Origin: Cephaloticoccus capnophilus
GTDB taxonomy: Bacteria > Verrucomicrobiota > Verrucomicrobiia > Opitutales > Opitutaceae
Assembly: GCF_001580045.1 (NCBI RefSeq)
Contig: NZ_LSZP01000004.1
Location: 1 to 64,000, forward strand
Direction: 5' to 3'
DNA: 64,000 bases
Below, in pieces: positions 8,997-64,000 of the stretch; position 1 is the first letter of the stretch; each line of letters begins with the position of its first letter. A model generated the notes under the pieces. It searched no databases. It had not been told where the DNA came from and saw nothing but the letters and a program-made list of their open reading frames with translations. Position numbers and translations under genes: made by a program.

Positions 8997-11549
8997 ATGT
9001 CCCAACAAGACCCGACGAACAACTTCACCCCGCGCGCCCAGCAAGTCCTCGCCATGTCCAAGCAGGAGGCCGCCCGCTACAAGCACAACTACGTGGGCAC
9101 CGAGCACGTCCTGCTCGGACTCATCAGCCTCGACGAAGGCGTCGCCGTGAGCGTGCTCCAAAAGATGGGCATCAACCTCGAAAGCGTGCGCGCCGAAATA
9201 GAGAAACAGGTCGGCACCGGCCCAGGCGAGGGCGCGCCCAACCCCATCCCCTACACGCCGCGCGTTCGCAAAGTCCTCGCGCTGGCGGCCAAGGAGGCGA
9301 AGACCCTCAAGCATTCCTATATCGGCACCGAGCACCTGCTGCTTGGCCTCTTGCGAGAGGGGGAAGGCGTCGCGTCTCGTGTTCTTAAGGAACTCGACAT
9401 CGACATCGAGCGCACCCGCCAAGAAATCCTCAAGGAACTCGACCCGCAATTTTCCGGCGACGGGGCGGGAGACAACGCGGACGGCCCCTCGATGGCGGCC
9501 GCCGGGGGCCCGGGCGACGACCCGCGCAACAACACCGTGAAGACGCCCGCGCTCAGAGCCTTTGGCCGCGACCTCACCGAGATTGCCCGCAAAGGCGAAC
9601 TGGACCCCGTCGTGGGCCGCCAAAACGAGATTCGCCGCGTTGTCCAAATCCTTTGCCGCCGCACCAAAAACAACCCCGTCCTCATCGGCGAGGCAGGCGT
9701 GGGCAAAACCGCAATCGCTGAGGGACTCGCCCAAGAAATCGCCATCGGCGCAGTCCCCGACATCCTCTCCGAGAAACGCGTCATTACCCTCGACCTCGCG
9801 CTCATGGTCGCCGGCACGAAATACCGCGGGCAATTCGAGGAGCGCATCAAAGCCGTGATGGACGAGATTCGCCGCGCCAAAAACATCATCCTCTTCATCG
9901 ACGAGCTGCACACCATCGTCGGCGCAGGTGGCGCGGAAGGCGCGATGGACGCCTCCAACATCTTTAAACCCGCACTCTCTCGCGGCGAACTCCAGTGCGT
10001 CGGCGCGACCACACTAAACGAATACCGCAAATACATCGAAAAAGACGCCGCGCTCGACCGTCGTTTCCAGAGCGTAAAAGTCGAGCCACCCAGCGTCGAG
10101 GACACCATAACCATCCTCAAAGGCATTCGCAGCAAATACGAAGACCACCACAAAGCGGTCTTTACGGACGCCGCGCTCGAAGCCGCCGCCAAGCTCTCCG
10201 AGCGCTACATCACAGGCCGCTTTCTGCCGGATAAAGCGATCGACATTATGGACGAAGCGGGAGCCCGTGCCCGCATTAACTCGATGGTTCGCCCGCCCAA
10301 CATCGAAGAACTCAACGCGAAAATTGAGGCCGTCTGCGCGGAAAAAGAAAAAGCCATCACCGGCCAGCTCTTCGAGGAAGCCGCCAAATATCGCGACGAG
10401 GAGAAGCAGCTTCGCACCCAGCTCGACGAAATCACCGCCACTTGGCGCAAAGAGCGCGACGAGCAGCGCGTCACTATCGACGAAGACCTCATGATGGAGG
10501 TCGTCTCCACTTGGACGGGGATCCCGCTTACCCGCATGGAGCAAAAAGAGACCAAACAACTCCTCTCCATTGAGGCGGAGATTCAAAAAGTCGTCGTCGG
10601 CCAAGACCTTGCCGCCTCGGCAATTGCCCGCGCACTACGCCGCTCCCGCGTCGACCTCAAAGACCCACGCCGCCCCATTGGCTCCTTCCTCTTTGTCGGA
10701 CCGACCGGCGTTGGCAAAACCGAGACCGCCAAGCAAGTCGCCGTGCAAATGTTCGGCAACCAAGACGCGATCATCCAAGTCGACATGTCCGAATACATGG
10801 AGAAATTTGCCGTCTCGCGGCTCGTCGGCTCCCCTCCCGGCTACGTCGGCTACGACGAAGGCGGCCAACTCACCGAAGCCGTCCGCCGCCGCCCCTACTC
10901 GGTCGTTCTCTTCGACGAAATCGAGAAAGCGCACCCCGACGTCATTCAAATCCTCCTGCAAATCCTCGAGGAAGGTCGCCTCACCGACTCGCTCGGCCGC
11001 ACTGTGGATTTTCGCAACACGATCATCATCATGACCTCGAACATTGGGGCGGCACTCCTCCAACGGCAGACCTCGATGGGCTTTGCCGCCGCCGCCGCGA
11101 ACCCCAACGACGCGGATAAAATGCGCGAGAAAGTCATAGAAGAGTCCAAGCGCGTTTTTAAGCCCGAGTTCCTCAACCGCATCTCCGACATCATCTTTTT
11201 CCGCCCGCTGGAAAAAACTGACCTCGTGAAAATCGTGGACATCGAGTTGGAGAAATTTGGCAAACGCCTCGCCCCTCGCGCGATTACGATTGAGTTCACT
11301 AAGCCCGCGAAAGAGCTCCTCATCGACAAGGGCTACGACGAAAAATACGGGGCGCGCCCGCTGCGCCGCGCGATTGAGAACTCGCTGGAAGATCCGCTCG
11401 CAGAGGCGATTTTGAAAGGCGAGATAAAGGACGGCGACTCCGTGCGGGTCGACCGCGACGGCGAGAAACTCATCTTCAAATCCGCCGCAAAACGAAAGCC
11501 CCGCGGTGCAAAACCCGCTGCCCCCGCCGACCCCGAACTCGCGCGGTGA
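8997..11549 (+). CDS. clpC: ATP-dependent protease ATPase subunit ClpC
   Basis: HSP100-class unfoldase of 850 residues. It has a duplicated Clp N domain ([16 protein letters not shown], then [16 protein letters not shown]), AAA1 with Walker A GEAGVGKT at about residue 231, a UVR-containing middle domain ([19 protein letters not shown]), and AAA2 with Walker A GPTGVGKT at about 568. The short middle domain with a UVR motif identifies ClpC rather than ClpB, whose partial gene lies at the right end of the window. It would unfold arginine-phosphorylated substrates for ClpP; clpP is not in the window. It follows mcsA-mcsB as the third gene of the cluster. Confidence 0.96.
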
Positions 11550-25271: not shown

Positions 25272-26462
25272 ATGTCTGCTGCTCCCGTAAAATCGCGCCT
25301 AGGCCGTGGCCTCGGCGGCCTCATCGCTAAAGCGTCTTCGCCTGCCGCTCCTGCTCCAGCGCAAGCGGCCGCTCCCGTGTCCGCTCGACCGGTAGCCGCT
25401 GCTAAAAAGCCGGTTTCCAAGTCGGGGAAATCCGTTTCGGCAAAACCGGCAGCGACATCCACGGCAGAGCGTAAGTCTACGGCTCGACCCGTAGAAACTG
25501 CCTCTTCGCCAAAGCGGAAAGCCGATGCGGCACCAAGTGCGGAAGCCTTGGCGGCGGCAAGTGCGCCTGCCTTGTCGGCTAAGGCCGCCCTGAGCACGCC
25601 GTCTGGCACGCAAGAATGGAGGGCGGACTCGGCTTACTTGGAGATTCCGGTTTTTCAGATTGAGCCGAGCCCTTACCAAGCGCGGCGCGTGTTTGCGCCG
25701 GAAGCCCTTCGCGAGCTGGCCGAGAGCATTCAATCGGAAGGATTGCTTCAGCCCATTGTGGTGCGGCGTGTGGAGGATGCTGAGGCGGGCGCGTCGGGAG
25801 TGCGTTACCAACTGGTGGCGGGCGAGCGGCGTTGGCGCGCGTTTCAGGGGTTGAATCTAAAGGCGATTCCGGCGCGGGTGGTTGAGGCGGGCGATGCCTC
25901 TTCGGCGGCTCTCGGCTTAATTGAGAACCTTCAGCGCGACGGATTAAACCCGATCGAAGAGGCACACGGGTTTGCGAGTTTGATTCGCGACTTCGACCTC
26001 ACACAGGAAGCGGCGGCTGACCGCGTGGGCCGCAGTCGCGCAAGCGTGGCGAATACGCTGCGGCTGCTCTCGCTCGACGAGGAGCTGCAAGGCTACCTCG
26101 CCAAGGGGCTGCTTTCGACGGGACATGCGAAGGTGCTGCTCGGCGTGGCAGACTCGGCGCAGCGCGCCTTGCTGGCGCGGCGGGTGATTGAGGAAGGCTT
26201 GAGCGTGCGAGCGACTGAGCGGCTTGTGCAGGAGCTTGAGAAAACCAGTAGCGCGGCTCCGCGAACGGGAGGACGCGCCGCGAAGCGCGGTGGCGCGGCA
26301 CGCGATGCGGAGGCGGTGGCGGCGATTGAGCAGAAGCTCACTTCGCAACTCGGTGCGCGCGTGGCCGTGCTGCACACGCCGAAGAAAGGGCGCATTGTCA
26401 TCGAATACCACGGCAACGAGGACTTGCAGCGCGTGCTTGGGAAACTGGGCGTCGCACTGTGA
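25272..26462 (+). CDS. parB: ParB/Spo0J-family chromosome partitioning protein
   Basis: 396 residues. The N-terminal ~110 residues are Ala/Lys/Ser-rich and probably disordered, but begin with SRLGRGLGGLIAKA, the ParA-interacting motif of ParB proteins. The CTPase/ParB domain follows: IEPSPYQARRVFAPEALRELAESI, VAGERRWRAFQ, and LIENLQRDGLNPIEEAHGFASL. Then comes the helix-turn-helix (TQEAAADRVGRSRASVANTLRLL) and a C-terminal dimerisation domain. It loads at parS and organises origin segregation. No parA is adjacent, which is unusual for a chromosomal parB. The repeat element at 26502 starts 40 bp after the stop. Confidence 0.95.
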   Translation: MSAAPVKSRLGRGLGGLIAKASSPAAPAPAQAAAPVSARPVAAAKKPVSKSGKSVSAKPAATSTAERKSTARPVETASSPKRKADAAPSAEALAAASAPALSAKAALSTPSGTQEWRADSAYLEIPVFQIEPSPYQARRVFAPEALRELAESIQSEGLLQPIVVRRVEDAEAGASGVRYQLVAGERRWRAFQGLNLKAIPARVVEAGDASSAALGLIENLQRDGLNPIEEAHGFASLIRDFDLTQEAAADRVGRSRASVANTLRLLSLDEELQGYLAKGLLSTGHAKVLLGVADSAQRALLARRVIEEGLSVRATERLVQELEKTSSAAPRTGGRAAKRGGAARDAEAVAAIEQKLTSQLGARVAVLHTPKKGRIVIEYHGNEDLQRVLGKLGVAL

Positions 26463-26501
26463 GGCGTGCCGCCTCGGCCAGTGACCGCTCTCTCTGAGCT
26501 T

Positions 26502-26793
26502 CCACTGCGCGTGGTGCGGCAGCGTGTCGCTGCACCCATTCACAGAGCCGCTTGGTTGCCGTGCATTCGCACAGTAACCAAGCGGCTCTGTGAAAAGGAA
26601 CCCAAGCTTGGAGGTGGGAGTTTACTGGTGATTTTTCCCACCTCGCCCGAGCGGGTTATTACTCTACTTTCCCTGTCGCAACGCGACAGGGGGGAATGCT
26701 TTCAAATTTGGGAATTGGTTTCGTCGCGAAGCGACGGGGGCAATTCCCAAATTGAACGGGTGCAGCGACACGCTGCCGCACCACGCGTAGTGG
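26502..26793. repeat. Mosaic hairpin element, copy A (complete, long form, 292 bp)
   Basis: Bounded by 39-bp terminal inverted repeats (26502-26540 and 26755-26793, 37 of 39 positions complementary). Each end itself contains two hairpins: CCAC/GTGG and GCAGCG/CGCTGC. Internal modules in order: a 17-bp perfect stem (26541-26557 with 26576-26592); GAGGTGGGA/TCCCACCTC (26611-26619 with 26636-26644); a core CCCTGTCGC-AAC-GCGACAGGG (26671-26691); and a 13-bp stem AATTTGGGAATTG/CAATTCCCAAATT (26705-26753) enclosing CGTCGC-GAA-GCGACG. There is no credible gene inside. It fills most of the parB-secG gap; in the remaining 189 bp (26794-26982) I see nothing. Confidence 0.85.
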
Positions 26794-34015: not shown

Positions 34016-34155
34016 TCGGCAGAAGCTTTTATCATGCGCCCGCTTGCTGGCGGGGCGTCGGGGTGGCTTTGCTTAGGGTCTGTTCCCGTTTCAAACGCGA
34101 GGCATCTGGCTCGCGGCTCGCCACTCACGTGTGCTGTGCACGCTCGCCGCAGCCC

Positions 34156-41759: not shown

Positions 41760-41989
41760 CCACTACGCGTGGAGCGGTGGCATGCTGCCACTCCCATTTA
41801 AATCACGATTTGGCTCGGTCGCTTCGCAACCGAACACAAATCGTGATTTTGAAATAAGCCCTCCGTTTCTGTCGCAACGCGACAGGGGAGAGTGCTTTCA
41901 AATTTGGGATTTCGCTTTCGCGCGATAGCGCGTTGCGAAATCCCAAATTGAATGGGTGCAGCGACACGCTGCCGCCCCACGCGTAGTGG
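41760..41989. repeat. Mosaic hairpin element, copy B (complete, short form, 230 bp)
   Basis: Right end 41951-41989 is nearly identical to copy A's. The left end starts CCACTACGCGTGG, but its second hairpin is GTGGCA-TGC-TGCCAC instead of GCAGCG-TGT-CGCTGC. Internal stems: AAATCACGATTT/AAATCGTGATTT (41800-41811 with 41838-41849); core CTGTCGC-AAC-GCGACAG (41869-41885); and a 15-bp AATTTGGGATTTCGC/GCGAAATCCCAAATT (41901-41915 with 41935-41949) enclosing CGCGC-GATA-GCGCG. It lacks the ~80-bp spacer of copies A and E. No gene inside. Confidence 0.85.
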
Positions 41990-42171: not shown

Positions 42172-42180
42172 CTGTCGCTG

Positions 42181-42258
42181 GAAGCTCGGAAGCTCGGAAG
42201 CTCGGAAGCTCGGAAGCTCGGAAGCTCGGAAGCTCGGAAGCTCGGAAGCTCGGAAGCT
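42181..42258. repeat. 8-bp tandem repeat array (GAAGCTCG, about 9.75 units)
   Basis: The octamer GAAGCTCG repeats without a mismatch nine times and ends in a partial unit GAAGCT. It is intergenic, between the alpha-mannosidase and the TonB receptor, about 135-190 bp before the receptor's possible starts. Copy-number change would alter spacing in the receptor's upstream region. Confidence 0.9.
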
Positions 42259-42332
42259 GAGGTAAACTGCGCCAAATCTATGTCAAGCTGTTTATTTAAA
42301 ATAGCTTACGTTATTAGGGAATCGCTTTTTCG

Positions 42333-46903: not shown

Positions 46904-49768
46904 ATGAACTCCCTGCCTCTGCCTACCCAGGCCAATGCTGCACTCATCGAACAAGCCTATCAGTCTTGGCTAGAAAATCCCGACTCGGTAGACCCGACTT
47001 GGCGCGCGTTTTTCCAGGGATTTCAGCTCGGCTACGCAGGTGAGCCCATCAGTGGCCCGGCGGCGCAGAGCGTCTCGATTATCGATGGGCTCAGGCAGAG
47101 CCACGTCCACTACCTGATTAGCAACTATCGGGCGATCGGGCACCTCGAAGCGCACCTCGATCCGCTCAGCGAGCCGCCGCCCGCGCATCCGAAGTTGGGC
47201 CTTCCCTACTACAAGTTGAGCGAGGCCGACCTCGATACCGTTTTTGACGTGGGCACCTATCTCGGCGGCGGGCAGATGAAGTTGCGCGACGTGGTTGGGA
47301 GCTTGCGCCAGACTTACTGCGGTAAGGTCGGTGTCGAGTATACGCACATCCAAGACCTCGACGTGCGCTTCTGGCTTCAGGAGAAAATGGAGACTACGCG
47401 TAACCAGCCAGCCTTCACGCGTGGGCAAAAAATCCGCATCCTGCGCCGGGTTCATAAGGCGGAGCTTTTTGAGAAATTCCTCCACACCAAATACGTTGGC
47501 CAAAAGCGCTTTTCGCTCGAAGGCGGCGAGACGATCATCGCCGCGCTCGACTCACTCATTGAGCACTGCCCGGATGTTGGCGTGGAGGAGATCGTTATGG
47601 GGATGGCGCACCGCGGGCGGCTCAACGTGCTGACCAGCGTCATGCGCAAGTCCTTCGACGAACTCTTTGCGCAGTTCTCAGAAAACTACATCCCCGACAC
47701 CGTCGGCGGCGACGGCGACGTGAAATATCACCTCGGCTACACCGCTACGCTCAAGACGACGACCGGCTCCAAGGTCGATGTGCGCTTGGTCGCGAACCCC
47801 TCGCATCTCGAAATCGTGGACGCCGTCGTCGAGGGCAAGGCGCGCGCGCGCCAGCGAATCCGTGGTGATATCGATCGTACCTGTGTCATGCCCGTACTGA
47901 TACACGGCGACGCGGCCTTTGCGGGACAGGGGATTGTCGCCGAGACGATGAATTTTTCCCAACTCGCGGGCTACCGCACAGGCGGCACCGTGCACTTCAT
48001 CATCAACAATCAAATCGGCTTCACGACCGACCCGAGCGACGCGCGATCTAGCCGTTACTGCACGGATGTCGCCAAGATGATTGAGGCCCCCGTCTTCCAC
48101 GTAAATGGCGACGACCCCGAGGCAGTTTGCATGGTCGCGCAGCTCGCACTGGAGTTTCGCGTGCAATTTCACCGCGACGTTGTGATCGACATGTATTGCT
48201 ACCGCAAACACGGCCACAACGAGAGCGACGAGCCCGCCTTTACCCAGCCGCTCCTTTACCGAAAGATCAGCAAGCACCCGCAAGTCTCCGCCATCCTCAC
48301 GCGCAAGCTCATCGAAGAAGGCACCATCACTCCGGAGGAAGGCGAGGCCATCAAAGCTGAGTATACCCAAGCGCTCGAAGCCCACCTCGAAAAAGCGAAG
48401 GCAGGCGAGGGTGGGCGCAGTGAGAAACGTAAGGCCCGCCGTGATACGATTGCCCAGCAGATGACCCGGGAGCTCTCTGCTCCTGCCGCGCGTTTTCAAC
48501 CGAGCTTCGACTTTGAGCCCGTGGCGACGCACGCGACTGCGGCAGACATCGCCGACATCACCCGTGCGCTCTCGACCGTGCCCGAAGGGTTTAGCCCCAA
48601 CACAAAAATCCGTCGTCTCCTCGACCAGCGCGCCGCTGCAATTGCCAAAGGCGAGGGGATCGACTGGGGCCTCGGCGAGGCACTCGCCATCGGCTCGCTC
48701 CTGCTCGATGGTGTGCATGTGCGCCTGAGCGGCCAAGATTGCCAGCGCGGCACCTTTAGCCACCGCCACGCCGTCCTCCACGATATGGAGACGCACGAGA
48801 CGCACATCTCGCTGCGCCACATCCGCGAAGGCCAAGCCATGTTTTGCGTTTACAACTCACTGCTCAGTGAGGCCGCCGTCCTCGGTTTTGACTACGGCTA
48901 CGCGACCTATCACGAGAAGATGCTCTGCATCTGGGAGGCGCAGTTTGGCGACTTCGCCAACGGAGCCCAAGTGATCATCGACCAGTTCATCGCTAGCGGA
49001 GAGTCGAAGTGGCAACAGACCTGCGACCTCGTGCTCCTGCTCCCCCACGGCTACGAAGGCCAAGGCCCTGAGCACTCCTCCGCGCGCCTCGAACGCTTCC
49101 TCTCCCTCTGCGCCGAGGATAACATCCAAGTCGCCAACCCGACCACGCCCGCACAGTATTTCCACCTGCTGCGCCGCCAGATGAAGCGCAAGTTCCGCAA
49201 GCCGCTCGTCATCATGTCGCCCAAGTCACTCTTGCGAAACCCTGCCGCGACCTCGCGGCTCGACGAGTTCACCAGCGGCCATTTTCAAGAAATCTTGGAC
49301 GACGAGATTTGGGGAGAGCCGCGCAGTGACGCGCCGCCAGCACTTGACGCCAGCTCGGCGACTCAGGCTGCCCTGCGCACAGCGTCAGGCGCCGGGCAGC
49401 AAATGAAAGCGGACACTGTCCGCCGCCTCATTTTCTGCTCGGGCAAAGTCTACTACGACCTCTGCGACTACCGTGCGAAAAACGCGATTACCGACGTTGC
49501 GATTGCCCGCATCGAGCAACTCTACCCGCTCAACGCCGAACGCCTCGCCGAGGTCGCCGCGCGCTACCCAGAAGCGCGCCTCATCTGGTGCCAAGAAGAG
49601 CCGCATAACATGGGCTCGTGGAACTACATCTCCCCGCTAATTGAGGCCATCACCGGCCGCCGCCCGCACTATGCCGGCCGCGCTCCTGGTGCCTCGCCCG
49701 CAGTCGGCTCCTTGGCCTTGCACCACATCGAGCTCGAAGCCTTCCTCGACGCCGCATTCACCGTCTAA
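46904..49768 (+). CDS. sucA: 2-oxoglutarate dehydrogenase E1 component
   Basis: 954-residue ThDP enzyme of the TCA cycle. The N-terminal region starts [28 protein letters not shown] (E2-binding-type segment). [57 protein letters not shown]-like [18 protein letters not shown], and [22 protein letters not shown] mark the catalytic core. [22 protein letters not shown] and [12 protein letters not shown] are in the C-terminal domain. It decarboxylates 2-oxoglutarate and passes succinyl to E2 encoded immediately downstream. Confidence 0.97.
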
Positions 49769-53224: not shown

Positions 53225-53453
53225 CCACTACGCGTGGGGCGGCGGTCAGTGACCGCTTCCATTTAAATCGCGATTGTGCCCGTCCGCTTCGCGTCCGAAC
53301 CCAATCGCGATTTTGAAATGCCCCTCTCCAATCCTGTCGCAACGCGACAGGGGGAATTCTTTCAAATTTGGGATTTCGTTTTCGCGCGATAGCGCGATGA
53401 GAAATCCCAAATTGAATGGATGCAGCGACACGCTGCCGCACCACGCGTAGTGG
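53225..53453. repeat. Mosaic hairpin element, copy C (complete, short form, 229 bp)
   Basis: Left end starts CCACTACGCGTGG at 53225 and carries GCGGTCA-G-TGACCGC (53242-53256) in place of the GCAGCG hairpin. Right end 53415-53453 matches copy A except for one base (GGATG for GGGTG region). Internal stems: AAATCGCGATTG/CAATCGCGATTT (53265-53276 with 53302-53313); core CCTGTCGC-AAC-GCGACAGG (53333-53351); AATTTGGGATTTC/GAAATCCCAAATT (53365-53377 with 53401-53413). It sits between the convergent HAD and M16 genes, 31 and 16 bp from their stops. Confidence 0.85.
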
Positions 53454-59230: not shown

Positions 59231-59504
59231 TAGATATATATAATATAAAAGTACTTATTGTACGGGTGTTATAGTGAAGCATATAGTACCTAAGAATACA
59301 TACGCATTATAACTTAAAACGAAACCAGTTGCTGAAAATAAGGCAACGGGCTCGTGGCTTATGGTGTAGTAGGGAGGCGTAGTCTCTACTGTGTCGAAGT
59401 GCTCATTATGTGTTTATCGTTTGCGATTTGTGGGGGACGTGGATTTATCTGTGATTCTTCCTGTCTCGGGAAGCCGGGGCTCTCTCCGTCTCCCTCCTCC
59501 CTTC
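59231..59504. other. AT-rich intergenic segment without a recognisable gene
   Basis: The first ~100 bp are strikingly AT-rich compared with the rest of the window (TATAGATATATATAATAT near 59229-59246), then composition returns to normal. It separates the truncated PEP-CTERM copy from repeat element D. No gene, hairpin with a T-run, or element left end is visible. The junction near 59230-59350 may mark the deletion or insertion that removed the PEP-CTERM 5' end. Confidence 0.5.
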
Positions 59505-59626
59505 CTTGTCGCAACGCGACAAGAGAAGGGGGCTTCAAATTTGGGAATTGGTTTCGTCGCGAAGCGACGGGGCCAATTCCCAAATTGAACGGGTGCAGGC
59601 ACAGCCTGCCGCCCCACGCGTAGTGG
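59505..59626. repeat. Mosaic hairpin element, copy D (right half only)
   Basis: Begins at the core, here CTTGTCGC-AAC-GCGACAAG (59505-59523), then AATTTGGGAATTG/CAATTCCCAAATT (59538-59550 with 59574-59586) enclosing CGTCGC-GAA-GCGACG, then the right end (59588-59626), whose hairpin is GCAGGC-ACA-GCCTGC instead of GCAGCG-ACA-CGCTGC. The left half is missing. It ends 66 bp from the cbiO stop. The inverted 19-bp match to 34082-34100 lies just after it (59647-59665). Confidence 0.8.
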
Positions 59627-59691
59627 GAAAAAGCGTATCAGCGCGCTCGCGTTTGAAACGGGAACCGACCCGAGCTTAGGGCTGATGCGAG

Positions 59692-62435: not shown

Positions 62436-62595
62436 CCACTGCGCGTGGGGCGGCAGCGTGTCGCTGCACCCATTTACCGAACGCTTGGTTGCCGTGCGCA
62501 AGCACGGCAACCAAGCGTTCGGTAGAAAGGAGCCCAAACTTGGAGGCGGGAGTTTACTGGTGATTTTTCCCACCTCGCCCAAACGGGTTATCACT

Positions 62596-62600
<5 letters not shown>
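62436..62600. repeat. Mosaic hairpin element, copy E (left half, truncated at clpB)
   Basis: Left end 62436-62474 matches copy A's. The first internal stem is 23 bp and perfect (62475-62497 with 62502-62524) with a GCAA loop. The conserved ~80-bp spacer of the long form follows, including GAGGCGGGA/TCCCACCTC and GGGTTATCACTCTACTTTCC. The core, last stem and right end are missing: similarity stops at the clpB 3' end, whose final codons and TAG lie in repeat sequence. Confidence 0.82.

Positions 62601-64000
<1,400 letters not shown>

Follow-up and report, generated by a model that had tools for sequence, protein, structure and literature searches.

Copies of the element in the window

The window analyzed here, a stretch of 64,000 nt at the start of contig NZ_LSZP01000004.1 of Cephaloticoccus capnophilus, carries five copies of a mosaic hairpin element, designated as A–E, all of which were found at or near the coordinates originally predicted. 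Copy A lies between parB (stop at 26462) and secG, copy C between convergent genes that by sequence encode a HAD-like phosphatase and an M16-type peptidase, and copy E at the end of clpB. The features are as follows.

26476-26501, plus strand: outer module F2 (GGYCAGTGACCGCTCTCTCTGAGCTT), left of copy A
26502-26793, plus strand: copy A, of A type and complete, beginning with the hp3 side
26502-26514, plus strand: hp1 of copy A, left end module CCAC-TGCGC-GTGG, constant in both species
26519-26533, plus strand: hp2L of copy A, version GCAGCG-TGT-CGCTGC
26542-26591, plus strand: hp3 of copy A, long hairpin ACAGAGCCGCTTGG...CCAAGCGGCTCTGT
26592-26670, plus strand: core of copy A, conserved CGCCC-AAAY-GGG
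26671-26691, plus strand: hp4 of copy A, CCCTGTCGC-AAC-GCGACAGGG
26705-26753, plus strand: hp5 of copy A, AATTTGGGAATTGG...CCCAAATT
26762-26776, plus strand: hp2R of copy A, GCAGCG-ACA-CGCTGC
26781-26793, minus strand: inverted right end module of copy A, CCACGCGTAGTGG
41760-41989, plus strand: copy B, complete, B type
53225-53453, plus strand: copy C, complete, B type
59433-59626, plus strand: copy D, lacking the left end and hp3
59627-59642, minus strand: outer module behind copy D, GCTGATACGCTTTTTC
59650-59667, minus strand: outer module F1 behind copy D, CGGTTCCCGTTTCAAACG
62436-62605, plus strand: copy E, left portion, cut short at the end of clpB

Copies A, B and C are complete, as had been predicted. 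Copies D and E, described as a right half and a left half, are both partial, but D is longer (approximately 59433-59626) and has the core; because the core is common to both, they are not the halves of one split copy. The predicted terminal inverted repeat of about 39 bp is composite: only its outer 18 bp (CCACTRCGCGTGGNGCGG) are shared, and 39 bp is not a constant of the family. Further inward follows a distinct hairpin, the version of which on the left does not dictate that on the right. An inverted repeat of 39-41 bp is present only where these versions agree, as in copy A. No predicted gene lies within the copies, in line with the claim that they contain no ORF, although a mechanical ORF of 120 aa overlaps copy A and its flanks. 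The predicted proximity to a neighboring stop codon (up to about 70 bp) was likewise observed: the distance is 39 bp for copy A, 40 bp for B, 30 and 16 bp for C and 65 bp for D, and copy E extends into the clpB stop codon.

Three further observations concern the surroundings of the copies. The truncated edge of copy E (62590-62610) is where clpB has its called stop (62596, minus strand) and final residues. A tandem 8-bp repeat, GGAAGCTC, is located at 42172-42274, approximately 180 bp to the right of copy B. Two inverted stretches of 407 nt, at 10641-11047 and 63038-63444, are 79% alike; the latter lies within clpB, and a second Clp-type ATPase gene may therefore sit near 10.6 kb.

Copy number and distribution

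The mosaic hairpin repeats of C. capnophilus constitute a genuine, apparently undescribed family of DNA repeats, the size of which is far beyond the five copies in the window. In the source genome (G000; 2.09 Mb, 66 contigs), the end motif CCACTRCGCGTGGNGCGG has 171 forward and 171 reverse matches with at most two mismatches, against 3 + 3 for the reversed pattern; with 342 end motifs against six control matches, the copies exceed chance. The genome of a sister species (G006) is also a carrier, with 157 + 161 matches at the same threshold (reversed controls, 8 and 13), and each genome holds more than 150 copies. The check for further copies in the genome and its relatives, proposed with the original prediction, thus returned 342 end motifs in G000 and 318 in G006.

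When 252 genomes of the family were scanned with at most one mismatch, G000 gave 163 + 155 matches and G006 116 + 109, and all remaining genomes except G125 stayed at control level. G125, of the same family, has 11 matches at this threshold, and the ten that were read belong to a different repeat. We rejected this genome as the carrier of a relative of the element because its repeated matches are different, REP-like arrays. These arrays of its own (TAGGGGCGTCGCTTGCGACGCC... and CGCGTAGGGGCTTCGCTTGCGAAGCCC; L180-L189) are unlike the element of G000 and G006. Copy B, used as a DNA query against 38 genomes, matched only G000 and G006, and a profile search of 400 kb of a more distant relative (G002) yielded zero elements. 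Rfam gave no match at the gathering score, only low-scoring hairpin matches below the threshold; the element was unmatched in plasmid and phage records; and the exact end pattern was unmatched in the GTDB contigs, a set that may omit the source genome. The original prediction recognized no published family, and none was found in these searches of Rfam, plasmids, phages and GTDB contigs. Viral carriage was also rejected: 29 viral contigs contain the 18-base pattern once each, and the surrounding matches are all short. The family is lineage-specific.

Base-by-base reading covered 784 kb of G000 and 400 kb of G006, and element copies account for approximately 2.4% of the DNA in the former. Several contigs terminate inside or near an element, which therefore probably breaks assemblies.

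Anatomy of the element

The 784 kb of G000 contain 53 end pairs, which fall mainly into two size classes: 215-236 bp, mostly of B type, and 283-308 bp, of A type. Some end pairs of 324-402 bp carry extra modules. An A-type element consists, in order, of hp1 (CCAC-TRCGC-GTGG), hp2L, CCATT, hp3, a core with CGCCCAAAYGGG, hp4 (CTGTCGC-AAC-GCGACAG), hp5, AAYGG, hp2R and the inverted end module; in the B type, another hairpin replaces hp3 and the core. The hairpin positions have alternative versions. For hp2, these are GCAGCG-TGT-CGCTGC, GCAGGC-TGT-GCCTGC, GCGGTC-AGT-GACCGC, TGGCA-TGC-TGCCA and a double hairpin of approximately 50 bp, and they vary independently on the left and right. The elements of G006 have the identical hairpin order with stems largely different from those of G000, and the hp1 end module is constant in both species. 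Linkers are conserved as well as order, and hairpins make up nearly the whole element.

Additional modules outside the element ends, namely GCTGATACGCTTTTTC, F1, F2 and F3, are shuffled too. All 19 occurrences of GCTGATACGCTTTTTC are near element ends, as are 30 of the 59 occurrences of F1 (CTGTTCCCGTTTCAAACG) in the 784 kb of G000, and F2 was found at element ends in five of five cases in these 784 kb. F1 also occurs free of the element, often beginning at a TAG stop codon, as at 34080-34097 of the window. Many element ends read GCGTAG, and many others read GCAG.

A 61-bp stretch that resembles a single repeat module was observed in frame inside a sucA-like gene of the window (stretch, 49330-49390, plus strand; gene, 46904-49768). 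The gene encodes 2-oxoglutarate dehydrogenase E1, and the stretch is part of an approximately 30-residue segment absent from the E. coli protein.

Placement relative to genes

According to gene calls from a simple purpose-written predictor, which are approximate, the complete copies with called neighbors occupy 25 convergent, 24 tandem and 1 divergent gaps, compared with a baseline of 78, 292 and 83, respectively, among gaps of at least 40 bp. The elements are placed behind stop codons and avoid divergent promoters; in the set examined, they start 2 to approximately 110 bp past the stop codon. This strong preference for positions after stop codons and between convergent genes agrees with a structured RNA or two-way transcription terminator kept by selection at gene 3' ends, as do the T-rich bases that adjoin the element ends in G000. 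However, reading inward, the T runs come ahead of the end hairpin and not behind it, and a terminator scan of copy A gave 2 against a shuffle mean of 0.9, i.e., a value near the mean. The orientation relative to transcription is also mixed (15 same, 9 opposite), with no clear preference.

Secondary structure and covariation

Covariation was analyzed with 72 hand-named pairs in 30 complete copies from both species. Among the cells, 97.6% were paired, and 26 of the 72 pairs showed double-sided changes, which amounted to 155 cells against 46 in shuffles. In slid controls, the paired share went down to 34-42%, and RNAalifold, unaided, returned a similar structure. Local hairpins usually change on both sides, whereas the end-to-end helix shows no covariation where it is variable (8 of 30 copies unpaired at columns 6/339 and 12 of 30 at columns 38/307). 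We therefore rejected the end-to-end helix and regard a chain of local hairpins as the kept structure.

The strong paired changes in the stems would also fit the RNA or terminator function considered above. However, an excess of G-U pairs was absent both from the strand of the element itself (26 G-T versus 50 A-C in G000; 16 versus 13 in G006) and from the transcribed strand (15 versus 21), which speaks for pairing at the level of DNA and not of RNA. The restriction to two species, the difference in sites between them and the lack of an Rfam family also argue against this function, which we consider decidedly improbable. The structured, strand-specific 3'-UTR RNA offered among the original readings thus found no support, with the G-U excess, a clear orientation preference and an Rfam match all absent.

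Template switching has double changes and loop inversions as its signatures (PMC8794818), and it may act on these hairpins. The hp3 loop of G006 flips between TTC (5) and GAA (5), as template switching would give. In most hairpins, the loop orientation is fixed, which is not predicted by template switching alone.

Edges of the element and sites in the sister genome

In the most similar pairs of copies, the edges are sharp: identity drops from 93-98% inside to random directly outside CCACT...AGTGG. Dispersed copies are up to 98% identical and have unrelated flanks; copy B, for example, is 97% identical to another copy of the source genome (C48:24220-24449) with unrelated flanks. No direct repeats of at least 3 bases flush with the ends were found in 51 copies of G000 and 20 of G006, in agreement with the earlier report of no target-site duplication, and the signature of a staggered cut is thus absent. 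Insertion into the middle of a palindrome was rejected, as inverted-repeat matches between flanks were no commoner than in shuffled flanks.

The parB-secG gap, which holds copy A in G000, holds an inverted, different copy in G006 and is element-free in four distant relatives (G001, G002, G005 and G008). Profile searches of strictly syntenic gaps of G000 and G006 gave the following results: among tandem gaps, 48 were empty and 2 filled in both genomes, and the element was confined to G000 in 1 and to G006 in 6; among convergent gaps, the corresponding numbers were 2, 3, 0 and 2; and all 13 divergent gaps were empty in both. In the five shared gaps, the element was always in opposite orientation, and in a looser set behind orthologous genes, read by eye, orientation agrees at some shared sites. 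Behind 92 orthologous genes, shared sites were more frequent than expected (10 versus approximately 3.7, p = 2e-4), and the excess becomes smaller once gaps are divided by gene arrangement, since convergent ones tend to be filled in the two genomes alike. Filled and empty sites differ between the sister genomes; degenerate copies are present in some of the gaps that seem empty by the end motif. The excess of shared sites, in which the numbers are small, could stem from site preference, from old inheritance combined with inversion, or from the two together.

Some of the sites shared above chance could accordingly be old insertions. In an alternative explanation, the sites would be old and inherited vertically: copies inserted before the species split would be homogenized by gene conversion inside each genome and often flipped in place by recombination between the inverted ends. 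The excess of sharing, the degenerate copies and the opposite orientation in all five strictly syntenic gaps are in its favor, but only one of the two genomes has the element at many sites (tandem 1 and 6; convergent 0 and 2), the excess shrinks upon separation of gene arrangements, and the parB-secG gap is empty in the four distant relatives; we regard this explanation as rather unlikely.

Search for a mobilizing enzyme

Both genomes lack most of the recombinase families searched. DDE_Tnp_1, reverse transcriptase, IS110 and serine recombinase gave zero matches in G000 and G006 and were rejected as helpers. G000 has one Y1 (IS605-like) gene, which adjoins a TnpB-like gene and has no element ends nearby, and G006 has none; RAYT or IS605 was therefore rejected as the mover. 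The tyrosine recombinase counts, 2 and 3, respectively, resemble those of element-free relatives, and within the parts of the two genomes that were read, no pair of ends flanks a recombinase.

Between the ends of the two longest pairs lie a PEP-CTERM gene and the gene of a small, membrane-like protein. In G000, PEP-CTERM genes were seen between element parts at C20:31520-32985 and C20:23443-24937 (L072), and the two enclosed genes have alike upstream sequences. PEP-CTERM genes were rejected as regular cargo because only some of the six found are close to elements. These two genes, the inverted ends and the opposite orientation at most sites shared with G006 could be taken as marks of site-specific recombination sites, e.g., for inversion or gene-cassette exchange; this is hardly credible, however, given that most copies enclose no gene, that only some of the six PEP-CTERM genes are near elements and that the tyrosine recombinase counts are similar to those of element-free relatives.

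Interpretation and significance

The element is probably a lineage-specific, non-autonomous mobile palindromic mosaic of the MITE/BIME-like kind, 215-402 bp long with 18-bp inverted ends. The comparison of sites and copies, in which no event itself was seen, suggests this mobility. Copies would spread as DNA with a helper, passing, as the hairpins suggest, through a stage of single-stranded or cruciform DNA, and they may persist mainly behind genes, where they would do the least harm. The hairpin arms have probably been matched through template switching in replication and module exchange between copies, and not through RNA function. A more specific version, which we put forward tentatively and consider possible but doubtful, is that the element multiplies, and perhaps inverts in place, via host replication and recombination or a helper of a new type, in genomes almost devoid of recognized transposases, with its hairpins rewritten by template switching. 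If so, stems would diverge fast between sister species, and order, linkers and most loops would persist.

One genome offers dozens of natural variants of one hairpin series, in which stems change in pairs and neither strand is favored. This makes the family a test bed for whether DNA hairpins are kept by selection or by template switching in replication, as has been asked of RNA hairpins (PMC8794818). The element also poses a puzzle, as more than 150 copies per genome, some of them near-identical, occur where the searched recombinase families are almost absent. In practical terms, it can be used to trace rearrangements and to type strains in the group.

Comparison with known systems

Like REPs, REPINs and BIMEs (PMC3116915, PMC2817692, PMC3733652), the element consists of extragenic palindromes in high copy number and mosaic clusters, lies behind genes or between convergent genes, and has compensatory stem changes; target duplication is not expected in those systems and was not found here. 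BIMEs are intergenic clusters of several palindromic modules in variable combinations, as observed here, and the resemblance in REP-unit content is only short, to the G125 arrays. Unlike these systems, the element is 215-402 bp long and strings together several distinct hairpins in a set order, neither genome yielded a RAYT, and the GTAG tag is inconstant. A REP or REPIN is a palindrome of 20-40 bp with a GTAG or CGTC tag, single or as an inverted doublet, and its RAYT (Y1) is usually flanked by the repeat. REPs are palindromic, extragenic, present in high copy number and placed at 3' ends, and they occasionally supply a stop codon (PMC3733652). These traits, together with the many ends that read GCGTAG and the similar short string CCACGCGTAG in the REP-like arrays of G125, could place the element among GTAG-REPs or REPINs moved by a RAYT transposase. 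Such an assignment is very improbable considering that GTAG is present in only part of the ends, many of which read GCAG, that the units exceed 20-40 bp or doublets thereof, and that the single Y1 gene, which belongs to G000, lacks element ends in its vicinity.

BOX elements of pneumococcus and S. suis (PMC3049150) are modular composites of end modules and variable inner modules, with a lineage-specific sequence and an orientation bias away from promoters, and the element is like them in these respects. Unlike BOX, which has constant ends and a tandem inner module of variable number, it has no tandem arrays of inner modules, and whole hairpins are substituted at each position; this comparison is one of layout. 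With MITEs (Correia elements, RUP), the element shares a short, gene-free, structured and dispersed form with terminal inverted repeats, here of 18 bp; unlike in MITEs, no target-site duplication was found (51 + 20 copies). As for a parental insertion sequence, no end pair with a recombinase inside was seen in the parts of the genomes that were read.

Neisserial intergenic mosaic elements are intergenic mosaics of several repeat modules, and Rickettsia palindromic elements are repeats that lie in frame inside genes. The former, named in PMC9778887, are likened to the present multi-module intergenic mosaics by description only. The latter, mentioned in PMC3049150, are likened, also by description, to the in-frame fragment in the sucA-like gene (49330-49390), whereas the main family here is extragenic. 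Among the original readings, that of a non-autonomous, MITE- or REP-like mobile element is the best supported, by dispersal, sharp edges and site differences, but not as a member of either class: the element fails the tests for a RAYT-dependent REP and for a MITE with target-site duplication, yet it behaves as a non-autonomous interspersed palindromic repeat.
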